DNA from: Lysobacteraceae bacterium | GTDB lineage: Bacteria > Pseudomonadota > Gammaproteobacteria > Xanthomonadales > Xanthomonadaceae | DNA length: 46,099 bases | Direction: 5' to 3' | Assembly: GCA_021299355.1 (NCBI GenBank) | Contig: JAJTGG010000007.1 | Span: forward strand, 1 to 46,099 | Part shown: in pieces, positions 3,580 to 38,109 of the stretch | Position numbering within the stretch: position 1 is the stretch's first letter | Layout: every line of letters begins with the position of its first letter | Made by a program: the position numbers and the translations under genes | The notes under the pieces: generated by a model | Seen by the model: only the letters and a program-made list of their open reading frames with translations | What the model was told of the DNA's origin: nothing | Database searches by the model: none

Positions 3580-5406
3580 ATGAGCAGTCTCGAAAGCTAT
3601 GTTCCGAAATCCTCGGTCAGCCGTTCCGTGGCGGGAGGCCGTCTGCTGATCGGACTATTGCAGGGGCTGGCCTTGTATCTGATTTACCAAGCGGCAGAAA
3701 ACAAGCTGTGGACCGCCGACAATTCTGGAATGTTCGCGGCCTTCCTGTTAGTGATGACTCTGGTGCCCGTGTTCCTGATATCGGCCTTTGGGCATTTTCC
3801 TGCCAGGATACTCTTGCGTTGGCTGTTGCCGGCGGTAGCAGTTCTGGCGCTACTCGGTTTTTACGACATCTGGCGCGGTGTGGGCGCACCTTACTGGGAC
3901 ACCCAGAAATTCGCCGACGATGCGCGTTTTCCCTCCCCGCAACTTTGGTTGAATACGGCCGCCGGATTTTTCATCGCACACACGATGGTCGGTGCGGCTG
4001 TTCTTGAAGGCCGCCGCATCGCCGGTTACCGGAGTTATTTCGAAAGCGCAACCAAGCTGCTGATTCAGTTTGCCTTCGCGGCCGTGTTTACCGGCATCAT
4101 CTGGCTGGTATTGCTGCTCGGCGCGGCCCTGTTCGACATGATCAAGCTCTCTTTCCTCAGGGACGTGCTGGATGAGTCCTGGTTCGCCATTCCGGTGACC
4201 ACCTTCGCGTTTGCCTATGCCTTGCACATCACCGATGTCCGCCCGGCCATCGTGCATGGCATTCGTGGTCTGGTTCTGGTGTTGCTGTCTTGGATTCTCC
4301 CCATTGCAGTGCTGCTCATTGGTGGATTCCTGCTGGCACTGCCGTTCACCGGTCTTGAGCCGCTGTGGGCCACCAAAGCTGCGACGGCGCTGCTGTTGGC
4401 GGCATCGGCAGTTTTGGCGGTATTGATCAATGCCGGGTTCCAGGACGGCAGCGTTACCGACGAAGTCGCCCTGCCGATTCGCATCGCTGCGAGAATTGCG
4501 GCTCTGCTGATTCTGCCTCTGGCCCTGATTGCCGCCTATGCCCTCAGTCTGCGGGTTGGACAGTACGGCTGGACCGTCGACCGTCTGGTGGCCGCGTTCT
4601 GTCTGGTGGTGGCTTTGTGCTGCGGAGCGGGCTATTTCTGGGCCGCGCTGCGCAGCCCGCAATGGCTGTCGCGGATTGCGCCGGTCAATATCTTCACGGC
4701 CTTCATTCTGCTTTTCCTGTTACTGGCTATTTTTTCGCCGGTGCTTGATCCGGCACGGATCAGCGTCAACAGCCAGATGTCGCATCTGAAGGCCGGAAAA
4801 GTGGGCGCCGATAAGTTCGATTACGAATACCTGCGTTTCCAGGGACAACGTTATGGCGCGTCTGCGTTGAAAGAACTCGCTGCTAATGCATCCGGAAAAG
4901 ATGCCGCTGTCATTGCACTGAAAGCGAAAGCGGCACTTCAACGCGATGCGATTTGGCAGGCCGCTCCGCAGAAGGTGGATGCCAAACTGCTCGCAGTGAA
5001 CATCGCCGTGCGTACTCCGGACGCCACATTACCGAAAAGTTTCCTGGCTCAGAACTGGAAAGAAGCCATCAAGGACAATGCCAGGCAGCATCCGGAATGC
5101 CTGCACAACAGCGGCAGAACCTGCGAAGCCTTTATTCTGGATATGGATACTGACGGTGCAGTCGAGGTCCTGCTGCGCGAACAGGGCGGCTCGCTGCAGG
5201 TTTTTCATCTCGTAAAAGACAGCTGGAGCCTTGCCGGCACGGTCGATTTGCCGGGAAACTGCGCTTCAGTCAATGATGCGCTGACCTTGGGTCGAATTGC
5301 CACAGCGCCGACGAAAATGGAGGACATCGTCATCACCGGAAGGCATTACCGTCTGGTCAACAAGGCGCCGCTGACCTGTCCGCCAGCGGTTGCCGGCAAG
5401 CCATAA
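3580..5406 (+). CDS. DUF4153 multi-pass membrane protein
   Basis: The 608-residue protein has roughly ten or more hydrophobic helices over the first 390 residues, then a soluble C-terminal domain of about 200 residues. The C-terminal part contains a calcium-loop-like string DMDTDG (D521-G526) in a context resembling FG-GAP/VCBS repeats (ILDMDTDGAVEVLL). This layout fits DUF4153 family proteins, which have no established function. The start at 3580 follows a plausible AGGGAA ribosome site and a 24-base gap after the SemiSWEET stop, suggesting co-expression. The gene ends one base short of the stop codon of the convergent psd. The topology would place the soluble domain outside the bilayer, but its side is not clear from sequence alone. 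Confidence 0.85.
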   Translation: MSSLESYVPKSSVSRSVAGGRLLIGLLQGLALYLIYQAAENKLWTADNSGMFAAFLLVMTLVPVFLISAFGHFPARILLRWLLPAVAVLALLGFYDIWRGVGAPYWDTQKFADDARFPSPQLWLNTAAGFFIAHTMVGAAVLEGRRIAGYRSYFESATKLLIQFAFAAVFTGIIWLVLLLGAALFDMIKLSFLRDVLDESWFAIPVTTFAFAYALHITDVRPAIVHGIRGLVLVLLSWILPIAVLLIGGFLLALPFTGLEPLWATKAATALLLAASAVLAVLINAGFQDGSVTDEVALPIRIAARIAALLILPLALIAAYALSLRVGQYGWTVDRLVAAFCLVVALCCGAGYFWAALRSPQWLSRIAPVNIFTAFILLFLLLAIFSPVLDPARISVNSQMSHLKAGKVGADKFDYEYLRFQGQRYGASALKELAANASGKDAAVIALKAKAALQRDAIWQAAPQKVDAKLLAVNIAVRTPDATLPKSFLAQNWKEAIKDNARQHPECLHNSGRTCEAFILDMDTDGAVEVLLREQGGSLQVFHLVKDSWSLAGTVDLPGNCASVNDALTLGRIATAPTKMEDIVITGRHYRLVNKAPLTCPPAVAGKP

Positions 5407-5407
5407 C

Positions 5408-6250
5408 TCAGCCCAGCCGCAGTCCCATGCGCCGTCCGAGCACGGTCGGCGCTTGATGTTCAAATTCATCCAACTGCACAGCCCCTTCGGGGAATAACAA
5501 AATCACGGTCGATCCATAGTTGAATCGCGCCATTTCCGCAAAGCGTTCCAAGCGGATGTTCTTGCCGCGGAAATCAAGCCGTTTCGGCGCATCGGCGTAT
5601 TCCGGGATATTGACCCCGTTCCAGACCGTTTCCACGCCGGAAACCAGCATGGCGCCGACCATCACCAAACACATCGGTCCGAAATCGGTGTCGAAATGGC
5701 AGACCAGGCGCTCGTTGCGGGCAAACAGACGGGGAACATCGGCAACCGTTCCCGGTGACACGCTGAACAGGCGTCCTGGAACATGCAGGGTTTCGGTCAG
5801 CGTACCGGTCCAGGGCATGTGCACGCGGTGGTAATCGCGCGGTGACAGGTAAATGTTCATAAACACGCCGTTCGCGTAGGCTTTTGCCAGTTCTGCATCA
5901 CCCAGCAGTTCGGCGGCACTGTAGTCCTGGCCTTTGGCCTGGAAGATGCGCCCGTTTTCGATGATTCCACATTGGCTGACTTTGCCATCGGCCGGCAGAA
6001 TCAGGGCCCGAGGATCGGCATCCGGACTGCGGGCGCCGGGTTTCAGGGCGCGCGTGAAGAAGGCATTGAAACTTTCGTAACTGTCCGGATCGGAATTGGC
6101 GGCTTCTGCCAGATTGACATCGAAATTGGCCAGAATCGTATAGATGAAATTTTGCTTGATCCAGGGGGTTTTCGAGTAGGCCAGTCGGTGCGCCAGATTC
6201 GACAGCAGGCGGTGCGGCAGAAGGTATTGCGCAAGGGAGGCGATTTTCAT
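5408..6250 (-). CDS. psd: Phosphatidylserine decarboxylase proenzyme
   Basis: Psd decarboxylates phosphatidylserine to phosphatidylethanolamine at the inner membrane. The 280-residue proenzyme has the conserved PADGK (Asp88) and HRVHMP (His144) charge-relay motifs and the self-cleavage site near the C-terminus: Y245-G246-S247-T248, where cleavage before Ser247 makes the pyruvoyl group. Most bacterial enzymes have LGST here, so the Tyr is a variant. Its start codon overlaps the stop of the SCO1 gene (ATGA), so the two are translationally coupled. The partnership with a copper chaperone is not explained by pathway. Confidence 0.95.
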
Positions 6251-6873
6251 GGACGGGCCTTTGCCAGTGCAATCAGGTCCGCGCCGATGGCCTCCGGCTT
6301 GAGTGGCGGCCGGATGATGCCGGCGAACTCAGCCTTGGGATTGAGCAAGACGATAGTGGCGGAATGGTCCATGGTGTAGGAGTCGCCTTGCGGAACCTTC
6401 ATGTACACCAGGCCGAGTGCGCGGGTGAATTCCGCCAATTGCGGTTCAGCGGCAGTGGCCGTCAGGGTGTCTTTGTGGAAATAGGTGGCGTATTCGGCGA
6501 TTTTTTCGGGCGTGTCGCGTTCCGGGTCAACGGATACGAACAGCAGCTTCGGTTTGGCCGGAAGCCCGGCTTTGGCCCACAATGCCTGAGCGCGTGCCAT
6601 GTCGGTCAGTGCGGTCGGGCAGACATCCGGGCAATGGGTGAACCCGACGAACACCACGGTCCAGTGACCTTTGAGTTGTTCGGCGGTCATCGGACCGGAG
6701 GCGCTCTGCAGTTTAAACGGGGGCAGGGCACGGGGACTGTCAATGACTTTGGCCGTGGCCAGCACCGGCAATGACTTGGCCGGCAATGCCGGCTTGAACA
6801 CGGCCACGGACAGTGCCAAGCCAAGACCGGCCGCCAAGGCGGCAGTGAGGATCAGGAGGATTTTACGGTTCAT
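6247..6873 (-). CDS. SCO1/SenC copper-binding thioredoxin-fold protein
   Basis: SCO1-type proteins deliver copper to the CuA site of cytochrome c oxidase or act as periplasmic thiol reductases. This 208-residue form has a single N-terminal membrane anchor (residues 4-25) and a periplasmic thioredoxin fold with the copper-binding CPDVC motif (Cys81, Cys85) and the distant ligand His170 in YTMDHSAT. The open frame extends to 6990, but the start at 6873 (MNRKILLIL) is chosen because it places the signal anchor at the N-terminus. It is upstream of and overlaps psd by four bases. A promoter with TATAAT on the minus strand (6905-6910) lies 31 bases upstream. Confidence 0.93.
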
Positions 6874-16042: not shown

Positions 16043-16066
16043 ATCTACTCGAATGCCATTACTGAT

Positions 16067-16097
16067 GAATGGACCGGGCATTTGTTCAGGTCCGTTC
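16067..16097. terminator. Weak hairpin between convergent rlmL and mfd
   Basis: GAATGGACC (16067-16075) pairs with GGTCCGTTC (16089-16097), including one G-T pair, over a 13-base loop. There is no T-run on either side, so it is a poor intrinsic terminator. It is the only structure I see in the 68-base convergent gap. Confidence 0.2.
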
Positions 16098-16110
16098 CGC
16101 CATGAGGTCA

Positions 16111-19100
16111 TTAGCATGCTCCAAGTTGTGCCAGCAGCGCCCTTAGGAACATTGCCCGCTGGACGCCGTCTTCGGTTTTGTTGGTAATTTTCAGCCGGTC
16201 CGATCCCTGCATCGCATAGGTCTTAGGATTGCGTTGAATCAGCTGGATGACTGTCATTGGATCAATCGTCGGTTTGGCGGTGAATGCCAGATAGCCGCCA
16301 TTGTCGTGCAAATCGATGCGCTGGATGCCGATCTGCTCGGCCATCAGGCGCAGATCAGCGCAGGCGAACAGGTGCTCTGCCGCCGGCGGCAGCAAGCCGA
16401 ACCGATCGATGATTTCGATCTGCAGCTCACGCAGATCCGCCGGTGATTTTGCCGAGGCGATGCGTTTGTAAAGCATCAGCCGGGTGTGCACGTCATCGAT
16501 CATGCTTTCCGGCAGAAGTGCGGGACTGTGCAGGTTGACCTGGGCGCTGGCCGGTGCCGGTGCCAGCACGTCGGGAATTTTGCCGTCCTTGATTGAGGCC
16601 ACGGCGCGCTCCAGATACTGGGCATACAGCGCGAATCCGATTTCGGTGATCTGCCCGGACTGGCCTTCGCCCAGCAGCTCGCCGGCACCGCGGATTTCCA
16701 GATCATGGGTGGACAGAGTGAAGCCGGCACCCAATTCCTCCAGCGAGGCCAGTGCATCCAGACGCTTCCGTGCATCAGCGGTGATGCGTTTGAGGTCCGG
16801 AACAATCAGATAAGCATAGGCCCGGTGATGGGATCGTCCGACGCGGCCGCGCAACTGATGAAGTTGGGCCAGCCCGAAACGGTCGGCCCGGTTGATGATG
16901 ATGGTGTTGGCGCTGGGAATATCGATGCCGGACTCGATGATCGTGGTCGAAACCAGGATGTTGAAACGCTGTTTGTGGAAATCCAGCATGACTTTTTCCA
17001 GCTGACGTTCCGGCATCTGGCCGTGGGCGATGCGGATGCGGGCATCCGGCAGCATCGTCTCGAGATCGCGGGCGGCCTTTTCGATAGTGTCGATGTCGTT
17101 GTGCAGGAAATAAACCTGGCCGCCACGCGCCAGTTCGCGCTGGAATGCCTCGAGCAGGATATTGGGGTCCCACGGACAAATGAAGGTTTTGACCGCGACG
17201 CGGTGCGCCGGCGGTGTTCCGATGATGGACAGCTGGCGCAAGCCGCTCATCGCCATGTTCAGCGTACGCGGTATCGGCGTGGCGGTCAGCGTCAGCAGGT
17301 GGACATCGGCCTTGAGGGCCTTCAATGCTTCCTTATGGCGCACGCCGAAGCGTTGCTCCTCATCGACGATGACCAAGCCGAGGCGTTCGAAGGTCACATC
17401 CTTCTGCAGCAGGCGGTGCGTGCCGATGATTACATCGATTTTTCCGAGGGCGAGATGTTCGAGAGCCCGCTTGATTTCTTTCGTACTCTTGAACCGGGAA
17501 AGCACCTCGATGCGGACCGGCCAATCGGCGAAGCGGTCACTGAAATTCCGGAAATGCTGCTCGGCCAGCAGGGTCGTCGGTACCAACACCGCCACCTGCT
17601 TGCCGGCCATGGCCGCGACGAATGCAGCTCTTAAGGCCACCTCGGTCTTCCCGAAACCGACATCGCCGCAGACCACCCGGTCCATCGGGTGCGGCATCGC
17701 CATATCCGAAAGAACTGCATGGATGGCCTGTTCCTGATCAGGGGTTTCCTCGAACGGGAAGCCGGCGGCGAAACGATCATAAAGTGCCCGCTCGGTATCG
17801 AGCGTGAATCCCTCCTGGGCAAGGCGCCTGGCTTGGATGTCCAGCAATTCAGCGGCTACGTCATGGACTTTTTCAGCCGCTTTGCGCTTGGCTCTATCCC
17901 AGGCTTCTCCGCCGAGACTGTGCAGCGGAGCGTGCTCGGTACTGGTGCCCGAGTAACGCGAGACCAAGTGCAGTTGCGCGACCGGAACATAGAGTTTGTC
18001 GCCTTTGGCATACTCGATACTGAGGAATTCCCCGGGCATGCCGCCGGTTTCCAGGCTGACCAAGCCCTGGTAACGACCGACGCCATGGTTTTCATGCACG
18101 ATCGGCGCGCCGATGCTGATTTCATTGAGATCACGCAGGATCGCTTCGGGATCTTTCTGCTGGCTTTTCCGGCGTCGGCTTTGACTAACCCGTTCGGGAA
18201 ACAACTGGCGTTCGGTCAGTACCGTCAGCGGCGGGGACACGCCGCCGAATCCGTCCGAGAGGTCTGCAATGGTCAGCATGAGTCGGTGTGGCTCGGCCGT
18301 CTGGAAAGCGTCCTGCCAATCGCCCGTCGTCATGATATCGATGCCAGCATCCTTGAACAGCGTTTTCAAGGATTCCCGGCGCCCGGCACTATCTGCCGCC
18401 AGAATCACTTTTCCGGGATAGGCCGCCAGGAAGTCCATCAGGGCTTGGCCCGGTTTGCCGGCTGAATCCAGCCACGCACCGGCGAAAGGCGGTGTCAGCG
18501 CCAAGGCTCTCGCCTTTGGGTGGTCCGGATCTTCTGCGCTCAACAGCTGATAACGGTGATGTTGATTGAACCGGGCACGCAGGGTTTCCGGCGTGAAATA
18601 CAGCTCCGCCGGCGCCAGTAACGGACGCTCGATATCGTGCCGCCGCTGTTCATAGCGTTCAGTCGTCTGCCGCCAGAAATGCTCGGAGGCATTCAGGACG
18701 TCGGGCGCAAGCATTAAATCGTAATCATCGGGAAGATAGTCGATCAGGCTCGCGGTCTCGGCAAAGAACAACGGCAGGTAGTATTCGATGCCCGCCGGTG
18801 CCACGCCTTCCTTGAGGTCGGCATACAGTCCGCAATTCCGCGGATTGATGTCGAAACGCTCCAGCAGCTGTTCCCGGGCACGTTTGCAGGCATCCGCATC
18901 GAGGGGGAATTCGCGGGCTGGAAGCAGCTTGAGGCTGCTGCGGGTTTCACCGGAGCGCTGGGATTCCGGATCGAACAGACGCAGTGATTCAATTTCGTCA
19001 TCCAGCAGTTCGATGCGTATCGGCAGCGCCGAACCTGCCGGAAACAGATCCAATATCGCGCCGCGGATCGAAAAATCGCCGGCATCCATCACCTGCGGAA

Positions 19101-34397: not shown

Positions 34398-35735
34398 ATG
34401 AGCGACCGCCAAGGGTCCGGTCATCAGACGGTCATCGACCGTGCCGACCACGGCGTTTCGCGCAAGGACATCAGCCCGAATGCCCTGCGGGTGCTCTACA
34501 AGCTCCGCGATGCCGGATTCGAGGCTTATATCGTCGGCGGCGCCGTCCGAGACCTGTTGATCGGCGGACACCCGAAGGACTTCGATGTGGCCACCAATGC
34601 CACGCCCGAGCAGGTGCGCGCGCAATTCCGCAATTGCCGTCTGATCGGACGCCGTTTCCGCCTGGCGCACATCATGTTCGGCCAGGAAATCATCGAGGTC
34701 GCGACCTTCCGCGCCTCCGGTGACGATGATACGGCGGTCGGCGACCGACAGGTGCATGAAGAGGGGCATTTGATCCGTGACAATGTTTACGGCACCCTGG
34801 AGGAAGATGCTTTCCGCCGTGATTTCACCGCCAACGCCCTGTACTACACAATCGAGGATTTCAGCGTGCGCGACATCGTCGGCGGTTACGCCGATGTGCA
34901 GGCGCGCATTCTCCGGCTGATCGGTGATCCGGTGACGCGTTACCGCGAGGATCCGGTCAGGATGCTGCGGGCCGTGCGTTTGGCCGCCAAGCTCGACTTC
35001 AGCATCCACGACAGTGCTGCCGCGCCGATTCCGGAACTGGCCGGCCTGTTGGCAAGCGCATCCTCGGCAAGGTTGTTCGATGAATGCCTGAAAATCTTCC
35101 TTGCCGGAAGCGCCGAAAAGAGTTTCCTGCTGTTGGAGGGTTTCGGTCTGCTCGACGTCCTGTTTCCCGATACCGCCAAAGCCCTGCAGACCAACCGAAC
35201 TGGCGCCTTACGCGATATGCTTCTGCAGTCCCTGCGCCAGACCGATGCCCGCGTCAATGCCGATAAATCCGTTGCCCCGGGGTTCCTGTTCGCCTGCCTG
35301 CTGTGGCCGGCGTATTGCCGCGAGCTGGCGATTCTGCAGAACTCCGGTGCCGAACTGAGCGTGGCCCAGCAACGCGCCGCCGACCGCGTTACCCTGCGTC
35401 AGGTCGAGCGTGTCGCCATTCCGCGTCGGTTCTCCCAGCCGATGCATGAAATCTGGCAGTTGCAGACCCGCTTCGGCCAGCGCACCCGAAAGCGCGTATT
35501 CCGTCTGCTGGCACATCCGCGTTTCCGTGCAGCCTTCGATTTTCTGACACTGCGGGCCGCAGGCATTCCCGAGCTGGCCGAGGAACTCCAGTTCTGGGAA
35601 CAGGCCCAAACCCTGGCACCGGAGCAGCTGGCGCAGATCATACCCGACCAAAGCAAATCCGGCGACGGCGAAAGCGCCCATGTGCCCCCCAAGCGCCGCC
35701 GACGGCGCAGTAAACCGAAAACCAACGACGGTTGA
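34398..35735 (+). CDS. pcnB: Poly(A) polymerase I
   Basis: PcnB adds A-tails to RNA 3' ends and promotes decay. The 445-residue protein has the class II nucleotidyltransferase head with VGGAVRDLLIGGHPKDFDVATNA (metal-binding DFD), RRFRLAHIMFG, the flexible-loop Arg of RDFTANALYY, and the RYREDPVRMLRAVRLAAKL neck. HPKDFDVAT and the Lys/Arg-rich C-terminus (PPKRRRRRSKPK) favour PcnB over a CCA enzyme. GGGAG precedes the ATG. folK begins six bases after its stop. Confidence 0.95.
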   Translation: MSDRQGSGHQTVIDRADHGVSRKDISPNALRVLYKLRDAGFEAYIVGGAVRDLLIGGHPKDFDVATNATPEQVRAQFRNCRLIGRRFRLAHIMFGQEIIEVATFRASGDDDTAVGDRQVHEEGHLIRDNVYGTLEEDAFRRDFTANALYYTIEDFSVRDIVGGYADVQARILRLIGDPVTRYREDPVRMLRAVRLAAKLDFSIHDSAAAPIPELAGLLASASSARLFDECLKIFLAGSAEKSFLLLEGFGLLDVLFPDTAKALQTNRTGALRDMLLQSLRQTDARVNADKSVAPGFLFACLLWPAYCRELAILQNSGAELSVAQQRAADRVTLRQVERVAIPRRFSQPMHEIWQLQTRFGQRTRKRVFRLLAHPRFRAAFDFLTLRAAGIPELAEELQFWEQAQTLAPEQLAQIIPDQSKSGDGESAHVPPKRRRRRSKPKTNDG

Positions 35736-35741
35736 GACGTC

Positions 35742-36260
35742 TTGGCCGCACGCACGTTTATCGGATTGGGCGGCAATCTGGGCGATGTCGCTACATCGTT
35801 CCGTTCGGCAGCGGCTTCAATCGCGGCCTTGCCCGAGACCCATGTCATCACCGGTTCCGGTCTGTACGCCAGTCCAGCCTGGGGCGGGCTAGCGCAGCCG
35901 GATTACCTCAATGCCGTACTCGAAATCGACACCGGCCTGTCTGCCATCGCATTGCTTGAGGCATTGCTTGCCATTGAGCGCGCGCACGGCCGCGACCGCA
36001 GCGCGGCGCCACGGTGGGGTCCACGGCCCCTCGACTGCGATATTCTGTTGTACGCAGATGCGATTATCGACAGCGAGCGCCTTCAGGTGCCGCATCCGCG
36101 CATGGCGGAGCGTGCATTCGTTCTGTTACCCTTGGCGGAAATTGCCCCAGACCTGAGCATTCCCGGCTTGGGTACATTGATGCCACTGCTCGACCGTATT
36201 TCCGAACAACCCATCCGGCGCCTCGCTGAAGGAATACCGAATGTACTCCAACTCCGCTGA
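35742..36260 (+). CDS. folK: 6-hydroxymethyl-dihydropterin pyrophosphokinase
   Basis: HPPK transfers pyrophosphate from ATP to hydroxymethyl-dihydropterin in folate synthesis. The 172-residue protein has FIGLGGNLGD at the N-terminus and the signature RDRSAAPRWGPRPLDCDILLY with the two metal-binding Asp, then VPHPRMAERAFVLLPL. No ATG lies upstream in frame, so TTG at 35742, six bases after the pcnB stop, is the likely start. The 3' end overlaps the panB remnant by 20 bases. Confidence 0.95.
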   Translation: MAARTFIGLGGNLGDVATSFRSAAASIAALPETHVITGSGLYASPAWGGLAQPDYLNAVLEIDTGLSAIALLEALLAIERAHGRDRSAAPRWGPRPLDCDILLYADAIIDSERLQVPHPRMAERAFVLLPLAEIAPDLSIPGLGTLMPLLDRISEQPIRRLAEGIPNVLQLR

Positions 36261-36573
36261 TCCGCCCCGCCGGCCCGCACGGACCGTTCCCGATCTGCGT
36301 CGGATGAAGATTGCAGGAGAGCGCATCGCCAGCTTGACGGCCTACGACGCCAGTTTCGCGCGCGCCATGGATGTGGCCGGCATCGATGCCGTGTTGGTCG
36401 GTGATTCGCTCGGTATGGTTGTGCAGGGCGGGGCCAATACGGTTTCGGTCTCGGTCGCGGATATGCTTTATCACAGCAGGTGCGTGGCCAAGGGGCTGCA
36501 ACAGGCCCTATTGATCGCCGCTTTTCTCGGGCGCACGCGCCTGATCGATAATCTCGAATTCAAAATCCCCTGA
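36241..36573 (+). pseudogene. PanB-PanC in-frame fusion remnant
   Basis: Residues 1-about 93 are the N-terminal third of PanB (ketopantoate hydroxymethyltransferase): RMKIAGERIASLTAYDASFA, VLVGDSLGM (first metal Asp) and YHSRCVAKGLQQALLIA. A normal PanB then reads D-L-P-F; here the text switches to AFLGRTRLIDNLEF and stops, which is the usual C-terminal end of PanC (pantothenate synthetase), the expected next gene. About 175 residues of PanB and 260 of PanC are thus missing, including PanB's second metal Asp and PanC's ATP-binding motifs. The start keeps a good AAGGA site. The product (110 residues) cannot have either activity. pgi follows after 15 bases. Confidence 0.82.
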
Positions 36574-36588
36574 ATAAGGAATCATGGC

Positions 36589-38109
36589 ATGTGGAATGAA
36601 CAGGATTGGCAGGCCTTGGCAGGACACGCACGGCGTTGCCGGCAGCGGCCGATAGCGGCGTTGATTGCCGCCGAACCGGAGCGGAACGCCGCTTTTGCCC
36701 GAAGGCTCGGCCCCTTGTATTGCAATTTTGCACGCCAGCATCTGGATGCCACGGCCCTGTCCGATATGCAGCGACGCCTCAAGGACTCCGGCATTCATAC
36801 GCAGGTGCGCGCGCTGTTCGACGGAGTCCGCATCAACCGCAGCGAAGACCGTGCCGTGCTGCATACCGCCCTGCGCAGCGATTTGGGCTCGAGCCCTGAA
36901 GCGCGCGCGGCGCATGCCGCCGCGCAGGCTGCACTGGAGACCATGGAAGGCCTGGTCGTCCGGCTGAAAGCACAGGGCTTCACCGATATCCTCAGTGTCG
37001 GCATCGGCGGATCGGATCTCGGCCCGCGTCTGGTGCTGAACGCACTGACGGAATTCGGCAATGGCGGCTTCAATGTGCATTTCCTGAGTTCCGCCGATGG
37101 CATGTATCTGGACCGTTACATGGGCGCGCTGAACCCGGAAAAAACCGCAGTGCTGCTGGTCAGCAAAAGTTTCGGTACCCAGGAAACGCTGATCAACGGC
37201 GCGGCACTCAAGGCCTGGGTCGGTGATTCGGAACGGGTATTCGCCATTACCGCCAATGGCCAGCGCGCCGCAGCCTTCGATGTGCCGGCGCACAACATCC
37301 TGCCGATCTGGGATTGGGTCGGTGGCCGCTTCTCGGTGTGGTCGGCCGTCGCGTTTCCGGTGGTGCTTGGTTTGGGCATGCCGGTGTTCCGCGAATTCCT
37401 GCGCGGCGCCGCCGCCATGGATGCGCATTTTCTGGAAGTACCGATCGAAGACAATCTGGTTTATTGGCAGGCCTTGATATCGGTCTGGAACCGCAATGCC
37501 ATGGGTTACAGCACTCAGGGCATCATTCCCTACGATGAACGATTGGAACTGCTGCCGGCGCATCTGCAGCAGGTGATCATGGAAAGCCTCGGCAAATCGG
37601 TCACCGTCGACGGTGCGGATTGTACGCAGGCGACCAGCCCGGTGCTGATGGGGGCCAGCGGCAATCCCAGCCAGCACAGTTTTTTCCAGTATCTGCAGCA
37701 GGGCATCGGCACGGTGCCGCTGGACATTCTCGGTGTGATCCAGTCCGGCCACTGCCAGCCGACCAACCATCATTTCATTCTCGCCAATCTTCTGGCGCAG
37801 GCCGAATCACTGGCCAACGGCCAACCCAGCGACGATCCCCAGCGCCGCTATCCGGGCAACCGGCCTTCCACGGTGATGCTGCTGGACGAGCTTACCCCTT
37901 ATGCGCTCGGCATGTTGCTGGCTCTTTATGAGCACAGCGTATTCGTGCAGTCTCAGATCTGGAGCATCAACGCCTTCGATCAATGGGGGGTTGAGCTCGG
38001 TAAAAACATCGCCACCGGATTGATGCCTTATGTCGAAGGCGAGCAGACCGATCTGTCGGGGGTCGATCCGGTGACCCGGGAGCTGATCGGCGTCATGCGC
38101 CGGAGCTGA
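36589..38109 (+). CDS. pgi: Glucose-6-phosphate isomerase
   Basis: Pgi interconverts glucose-6-phosphate and fructose-6-phosphate. The 506-residue protein has the phosphate-binding GIGGSDLGPRLV, SKSFGTQET, base catalyst Glu332 in MESLGKSV, His363 in GNPSQHSFFQ and Lys472 in VELGKNIA. It is shorter than E. coli Pgi (549), mainly at the N-terminus, as in related species. AAGGA precedes the ATG. Its last 17 bases overlap the convergent queG. Confidence 0.96.
   Translation: MWNEQDWQALAGHARRCRQRPIAALIAAEPERNAAFARRLGPLYCNFARQHLDATALSDMQRRLKDSGIHTQVRALFDGVRINRSEDRAVLHTALRSDLGSSPEARAAHAAAQAALETMEGLVVRLKAQGFTDILSVGIGGSDLGPRLVLNALTEFGNGGFNVHFLSSADGMYLDRYMGALNPEKTAVLLVSKSFGTQETLINGAALKAWVGDSERVFAITANGQRAAAFDVPAHNILPIWDWVGGRFSVWSAVAFPVVLGLGMPVFREFLRGAAAMDAHFLEVPIEDNLVYWQALISVWNRNAMGYSTQGIIPYDERLELLPAHLQQVIMESLGKSVTVDGADCTQATSPVLMGASGNPSQHSFFQYLQQGIGTVPLDILGVIQSGHCQPTNHHFILANLLAQAESLANGQPSDDPQRRYPGNRPSTVMLLDELTPYALGMLLALYEHSVFVQSQIWSINAFDQWGVELGKNIATGLMPYVEGEQTDLSGVDPVTRELIGVMRRS

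Follow-up and report, generated by a model that had tools for sequence, protein, structure and literature searches.

In Enterococcus faecalis, 27 of 62 strains are presumed to have lost panDBGC, according to the available part of a study of gut genomes (PMC6593275). Among the vitamin B5 variants shown in that part, variant Apn keeps a kinase, CoaD and CoaE, the "CoA uptake" variant keeps none of these, and no variant combines CoaD and CoaE with the absence of a kinase (PMC6593275). Most mycoplasmas of another study, as far as its available text goes, have only PPAT (CoaD) and DPCK (CoaE) and have been proposed to scavenge 4'-phosphopantetheine, the source of which is called an open question there (PMC8721197).

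Here we describe a pair of in-frame deletion scars in the genome of a gammaproteobacterium that probably belongs to the genus Arenimonas. None of the titles listed for Arenimonas deals with pantothenate or auxotrophy. The window is the whole stretch of DNA analysed, 46,099 nucleotides long, and corresponds to contig C28 of this genome (G000), a 1.66-Mb draft in 74 contigs that is 85.2% complete. Compared with the described systems, as presented in the parts of the sources cited above, G000 has in common with E. faecalis that de novo pantothenate synthesis is lost and relatives keep it; the differences are that the deletion lies within two genes, that it has left a fused scar, and that the kinase acting at the first step towards CoA has been deleted as well. 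As in the Apn and "CoA uptake" gut variants, vitamin B5 auxotrophy is accompanied by an incomplete downstream CoA pathway. If no kinase or CoaBC turns up, the residual enzyme set is the same as in the mycoplasmas (again as described in the available text), which, however, are host-dependent organisms with reduced genomes, whereas G000 is a gammaproteobacterium in which the scars can still be read and coaBC falls in an assembly gap. Auxotrophy for pantothenate (vitamin B5) is common and in itself ordinary; what is unusual here is that the kinase is lost while CoaD and CoaE are kept.

The panB–panC locus and its neighbours in the window are as follows.

34398-35735, + strand: pcnB, upstream neighbour, intact (PF01743, E 3.3e-38)
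35742-36260, + strand: folK (HPPK), upstream, intact, overlapping the start of panB (PF01288, E 1.9e-35)
36241-36573, + strand: panB'-'panC fusion ORF of 110 aa, the deletion scar (ATG at 36241, stop at 36571-36573)
36241-36511, + strand: panB remnant, the N-terminal third (PF02548 and alignment to panB of the sister genome G001)
36512-36520, + strand: 9-bp direct repeat TGATCGCCG at the junction, single copy left (in G001, panB and panC each contain a copy)
36521-36573, + strand: panC remnant, the last 17 codons and the stop, the first base of these codons lying inside the repeat
36589-38109, + strand: pgi, downstream neighbour, intact (PF00342, E 9.6e-125)

The initial annotation had read this ORF as a PanB N-terminus up to approximately residue 93 followed by a C-terminal string of PanC, and the comparison with G001 bears this out: the ORF consists of PanB residues 1-93 and the last 17 residues of PanC, joined in frame. 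Its residues 15-93 match positions 3-81 of the 259 positions of the PanB profile (PF02548, Pfam, E 3.6e-26), short of the full-length match expected of a functional PanB and seen in PanB of G001 (positions 3-258), and it is matched by five different PanB sequences of solved structure, all inside residues 8-94. In the tail, residues 84-105 align with positions 247-267 of the 268 positions of PF02569 at 11.9 bits and E 0.12, below the cut-off of 20.7, and therefore its identity as PanC is based on G001. The full-length PF02569 match expected of a functional PanC is likewise absent from the fusion ORF, and the assembly contains no PanC elsewhere.

G001, a sister with about 94% identical DNA, is the nearest relative at this locus among 30 other genomes. 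In its sequence L010, panB (5001-5831, 276 aa) and panC (5831-6679, 282 aa) both give near-full-length matches to their Pfam families. The window aligns with panB of G001 up to position 36520 and with panC from position 36512, the shared 9 bp being TGATCGCCG; exactly 1346 bp are missing from the window, between two 9-bp direct repeats of this sequence, and positions 36512-36560 are identical to the panC tail of G001. The two genes share one base and are read in different frames, so that a loss of 1346 bp (2 modulo 3) restores the frame. The earlier proposal of an approximately 1.3-kb deletion between short matching stretches, with the frame preserved, was right in length and junction site, the alignment to the sister placing the deletion ends at 36512-36520; the greater part of each gene has gone. 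The PanC of G001 ends in FLGRTRLIDNLEFEIP, that is, in a GRTRLIDN-like string, as the fusion reading implied.

Spontaneous deletions in bacteria occur between short direct repeats. One copy of the repeat is retained at the junction of known deletions of this kind, and the same is observed here, with no difference seen. For random deletions in the panB–panC region, the probability of an exact microhomology of at least 9 bp is 5.9e-5; a longer, 14-bp repeat is also present in panB–panC of G001 and was not used. The panB remnant differs from G001 in the amino acid at nine of 90 codons (four changed in G000, one in G001, four ambiguous), which is too few for dating the deletion. The remnants of panB–panC, and those of coaX described below, contain no stops or frameshifts, hence the event looks recent. 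As a sign of selection, the intact frame is weak evidence because a frame is kept with a chance of one third. Most likely, the panB–panC scar reflects a real deletion, recent and ordinary in type; its extension to the kinase step is uncommon.

This extension concerns coaX, which encodes the type III pantothenate kinase. Following the pathway led to this locus, so that panB–panC and coaX are chosen loci, no random draw, and the assignment of their contigs, C28 and C65, to one organism rests on binning. The scar is:

G000:C65:35972-36169 (= L042:15972-16169), − strand: coaX scar, a 65-aa remnant ORF left by a 531-bp in-frame deletion

Contig C65 is collinear with the coaX region of G001 on both sides, and the in-place deletion at a short repeat takes out 177 of 242 codons, leaving a remnant of 65 aa compared to 242 aa in G001; the remnant has no Pfam match with an E value of 1 or lower. 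The arms of the deletion in G001 are TGGCCGATGCCG and TGGCCGAAGCCG, with seven exact bases. A repeat of 12 bp considered at this junction was rejected, since on reading it proved to be seven exact bases within an 11/12 match. The probability of at least 7 bp of microhomology is 1.4e-3 for random deletions in coaX; the repeats at both loci are longer than random deletions would give. The left coaX remnant has one change in 43 codons relative to G001. In the genus, this kinase type is found in 25 of 27 genomes, the two without a coaX match being G000 and G017 (81% complete).

Downstream of the kinase, the two enzymes expected of a scavenger are both intact in G000: CoaE (PF01121, E 7.5e-47), encoded beside a gene that we take to be that of a prepilin peptidase, and a CoaD-like protein (PF01467, CTP_transf_like, E 9.6e-27), presumably CoaD given this domain and its motif. 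CoaBC (PF04127) has no match in the G000 assembly, and its locus would lie beyond the end of contig C47: this contig (11,041 bases) ends before the argS–coaBC region of G001, and that stretch is absent from the assembly. We considered the loss of CoaBC as a third hit and rejected it, as the G001 region runs off the end of C47 and argS, too, lies in the part without a match; the lack of a coaBC match comes from an assembly gap and does not speak for a loss. G001 keeps panB, panC, coaX and coaBC. In a separate observation, G206 has no PF04127 match despite its 99% completeness. Upstream, the search for panD and panE that had been suggested with the initial annotation gave no match to PanD in any of 19 genus genomes (six of 31 genomes overall) and none to PanE (PF08546, ApbA_C) in any of 27 genus genomes, and therefore the genus probably has other routes to beta-alanine and pantoate.

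Other copies of the deleted genes were sought as well: no second panB or panC is found in the assembled part of G000. PanB matches in 31 out of 31 genomes, in G000 as the remnant only and in G003 in pieces; the 18 congeners searched have it at full or nearly full length, except that in G003 it is split. PanC occurs in all 26 congeners, though split in G003 and G011, and, in a family sample of 395 genomes, in 386, including 352 out of 352 near-complete ones (completeness of 90% or more, contamination of 5% or less). The nine genomes without a match to PanC are G000 and eight others, each at most 86% complete; these eight apart, no second case of panB–panC loss has been seen. In G000 the loss is seen in place and not deduced from absence. 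As to the gene pieces, the panB, panC and coaBC matches are split in G003:C1, and panC is in three pieces in G011:C260, which may reflect sequencing indels or decay.

Beyond the two loci, 1,144,565 bases of G000 were compared with 413,502 bases of G001, giving 184,691 aligned bases in 25 pairs, after pairs with fewer than 800 aligned bases and pieces shorter than 150 bases or below 85% identity had been left out. Sixteen breaks between aligned pieces were counted, with DNA missing from G000 at 15 and from G001 at one; this bias suggests that either G000 has undergone net loss or G001 has gained DNA. Ten breaks are of at least 500 bp, panB–panC and coaX included. At the other eight, the missing DNA is intergenic or takes in ORFs completely or almost completely (two of the genes could be named by Pfam), and in none of these eight, within the 184,691 aligned bases, are two ends of a gene joined in frame. 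Rampant decay of G000 was considered and rejected in view of the kind of DNA missing at these eight untargeted large differences. Several individual differences are worth recording. At positions 16043-16117 of the window, G001 is approximately 1.7 kb longer and has a gene of a solute-binding protein and a 171-aa ORF, presumably a histidine phosphatase, both absent from the window. An MMPL-type gene (L166:16009-18252, + strand) shows a 201-bp in-frame difference (747 aa vs. 814 aa in G001); at L159:970-1031, a net 124 bp are missing where G001 has a 147-aa ORF (L116:13553-13996); and two further small differences are of 86 and 67 bp.

These observations bear on whether the scars belong to the organism. 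If they were an artefact of assembly or strain mixture, the true genome would have intact panB–panC and coaX, and the assembler would have joined sequences across short repeats, as might be imagined for a draft in 74 contigs, 85% complete, with short repeats at both junctions. Assembly k-mers, however, are usually well above 9 bp, and the repeats have only nine and seven exact bases; the flanks are collinear with and 93–96% identical to G001 on both sides; and it would take a coincidence for two artefacts to fall in a single pathway, given that none of the eight further large differences in the 185-kb sample joins two ends of a gene. We therefore consider the collapse of the assembly, offered in the initial annotation as an alternative, unlikely, and an artefact of either kind improbable. 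Still less credible, to the point of being very improbable, is the idea that selection maintains the 110-aa fusion ORF as a small protein that has taken on a new role. Its start and frame are kept and it has no stops, but frame retention has a chance of one third, the 18 congeners searched have full-length or nearly full-length PanB (in pieces in G003), and dN/dS in the panB remnant is 0.32, compared to 0.02 in pcnB, 0.24 in folK and 0.11 in pgi, and hence there is no sign of stronger constraint.

The best explanation as a whole, and one that we regard as likely, is that both the panB–panC and coaX deletions are real and the cell is fed with a CoA precursor. Both deletions would have arisen by replication slippage or microhomology joining, and may have been tolerated because the cell already received a precursor. 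Relatives have panB and panC, and G000, as far as its assembled 85% goes, lacks them, which is the pattern of pantothenate auxotrophy by gene loss. With PanB and PanC lost, no pantothenate can be made by the known route; with somewhat less certainty, the cell could neither make pantothenate nor phosphorylate it with CoaX. It had been suggested initially that such a cell, if it has no other copies, needs external pantothenate or pantoate. The proposed deletion mechanism holds up, but its consequence was drawn too narrowly: supplied pantoate is of no use once PanC is lost, and pantothenate alone is probably insufficient because coaX has been deleted in place too. G000 thus probably depends on precursors made by others.

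Which precursor is imported can be approached from gene content. Scavenging of 4'-phosphopantetheine or a later compound is a reading that, on these sequences, comes close to an even call without reaching it. In E. coli, uptake of 4'-phosphopantetheine or other phosphorylated intermediates is not known according to the available part of one source, which counts against it (PMC12570885), and no bacterial transporter for 4'-phosphopantetheine was met in the available parts of the literature cited. Possibly, though we hold this with some doubt, G000 takes up pantothenate or pantetheine as the substrate of a kinase yet to be found. It would then be an ordinary pantothenate auxotroph in which coaX had become redundant after a CoaA-type or other kinase was acquired, and would proceed through CoaD and CoaE, and CoaBC if present. 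In the available texts, type I kinases also accept pantetheine (PMC12570885), and type III kinases do not use it (PMC8721197). A replaced kinase also agrees with the absence of CoaBC being a mere contig-end gap beside argS, and 31% of the assembly and approximately 15% of the genome lie outside the scan for a type I kinase. Against it, the motif of CoaA, the type I kinase, is absent from the 1,144,565 of 1,658,816 bases of G000 scanned (69%), and a looser pattern matched in these bases a single ORF, which we take to be an ABC-type ATPase.

Returning to the deletions as real events in a precursor-fed cell, both scars can be read base by base, and the loss extends past vitamin B5 into pantothenate kinase. 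Tentatively, and with the reservations given above, G000 may be a gammaproteobacterium that has just shifted its CoA supply to imported 4'-phosphopantetheine or a later compound, dropping pantothenate synthesis and the kinase by two fresh short-repeat deletions and keeping CoaD and CoaE. Such a shift, if true, would imply an uptake route absent from E. coli. If G000 has no other kinase, it would be an indication that bacteria can take up phosphorylated precursors of CoA.
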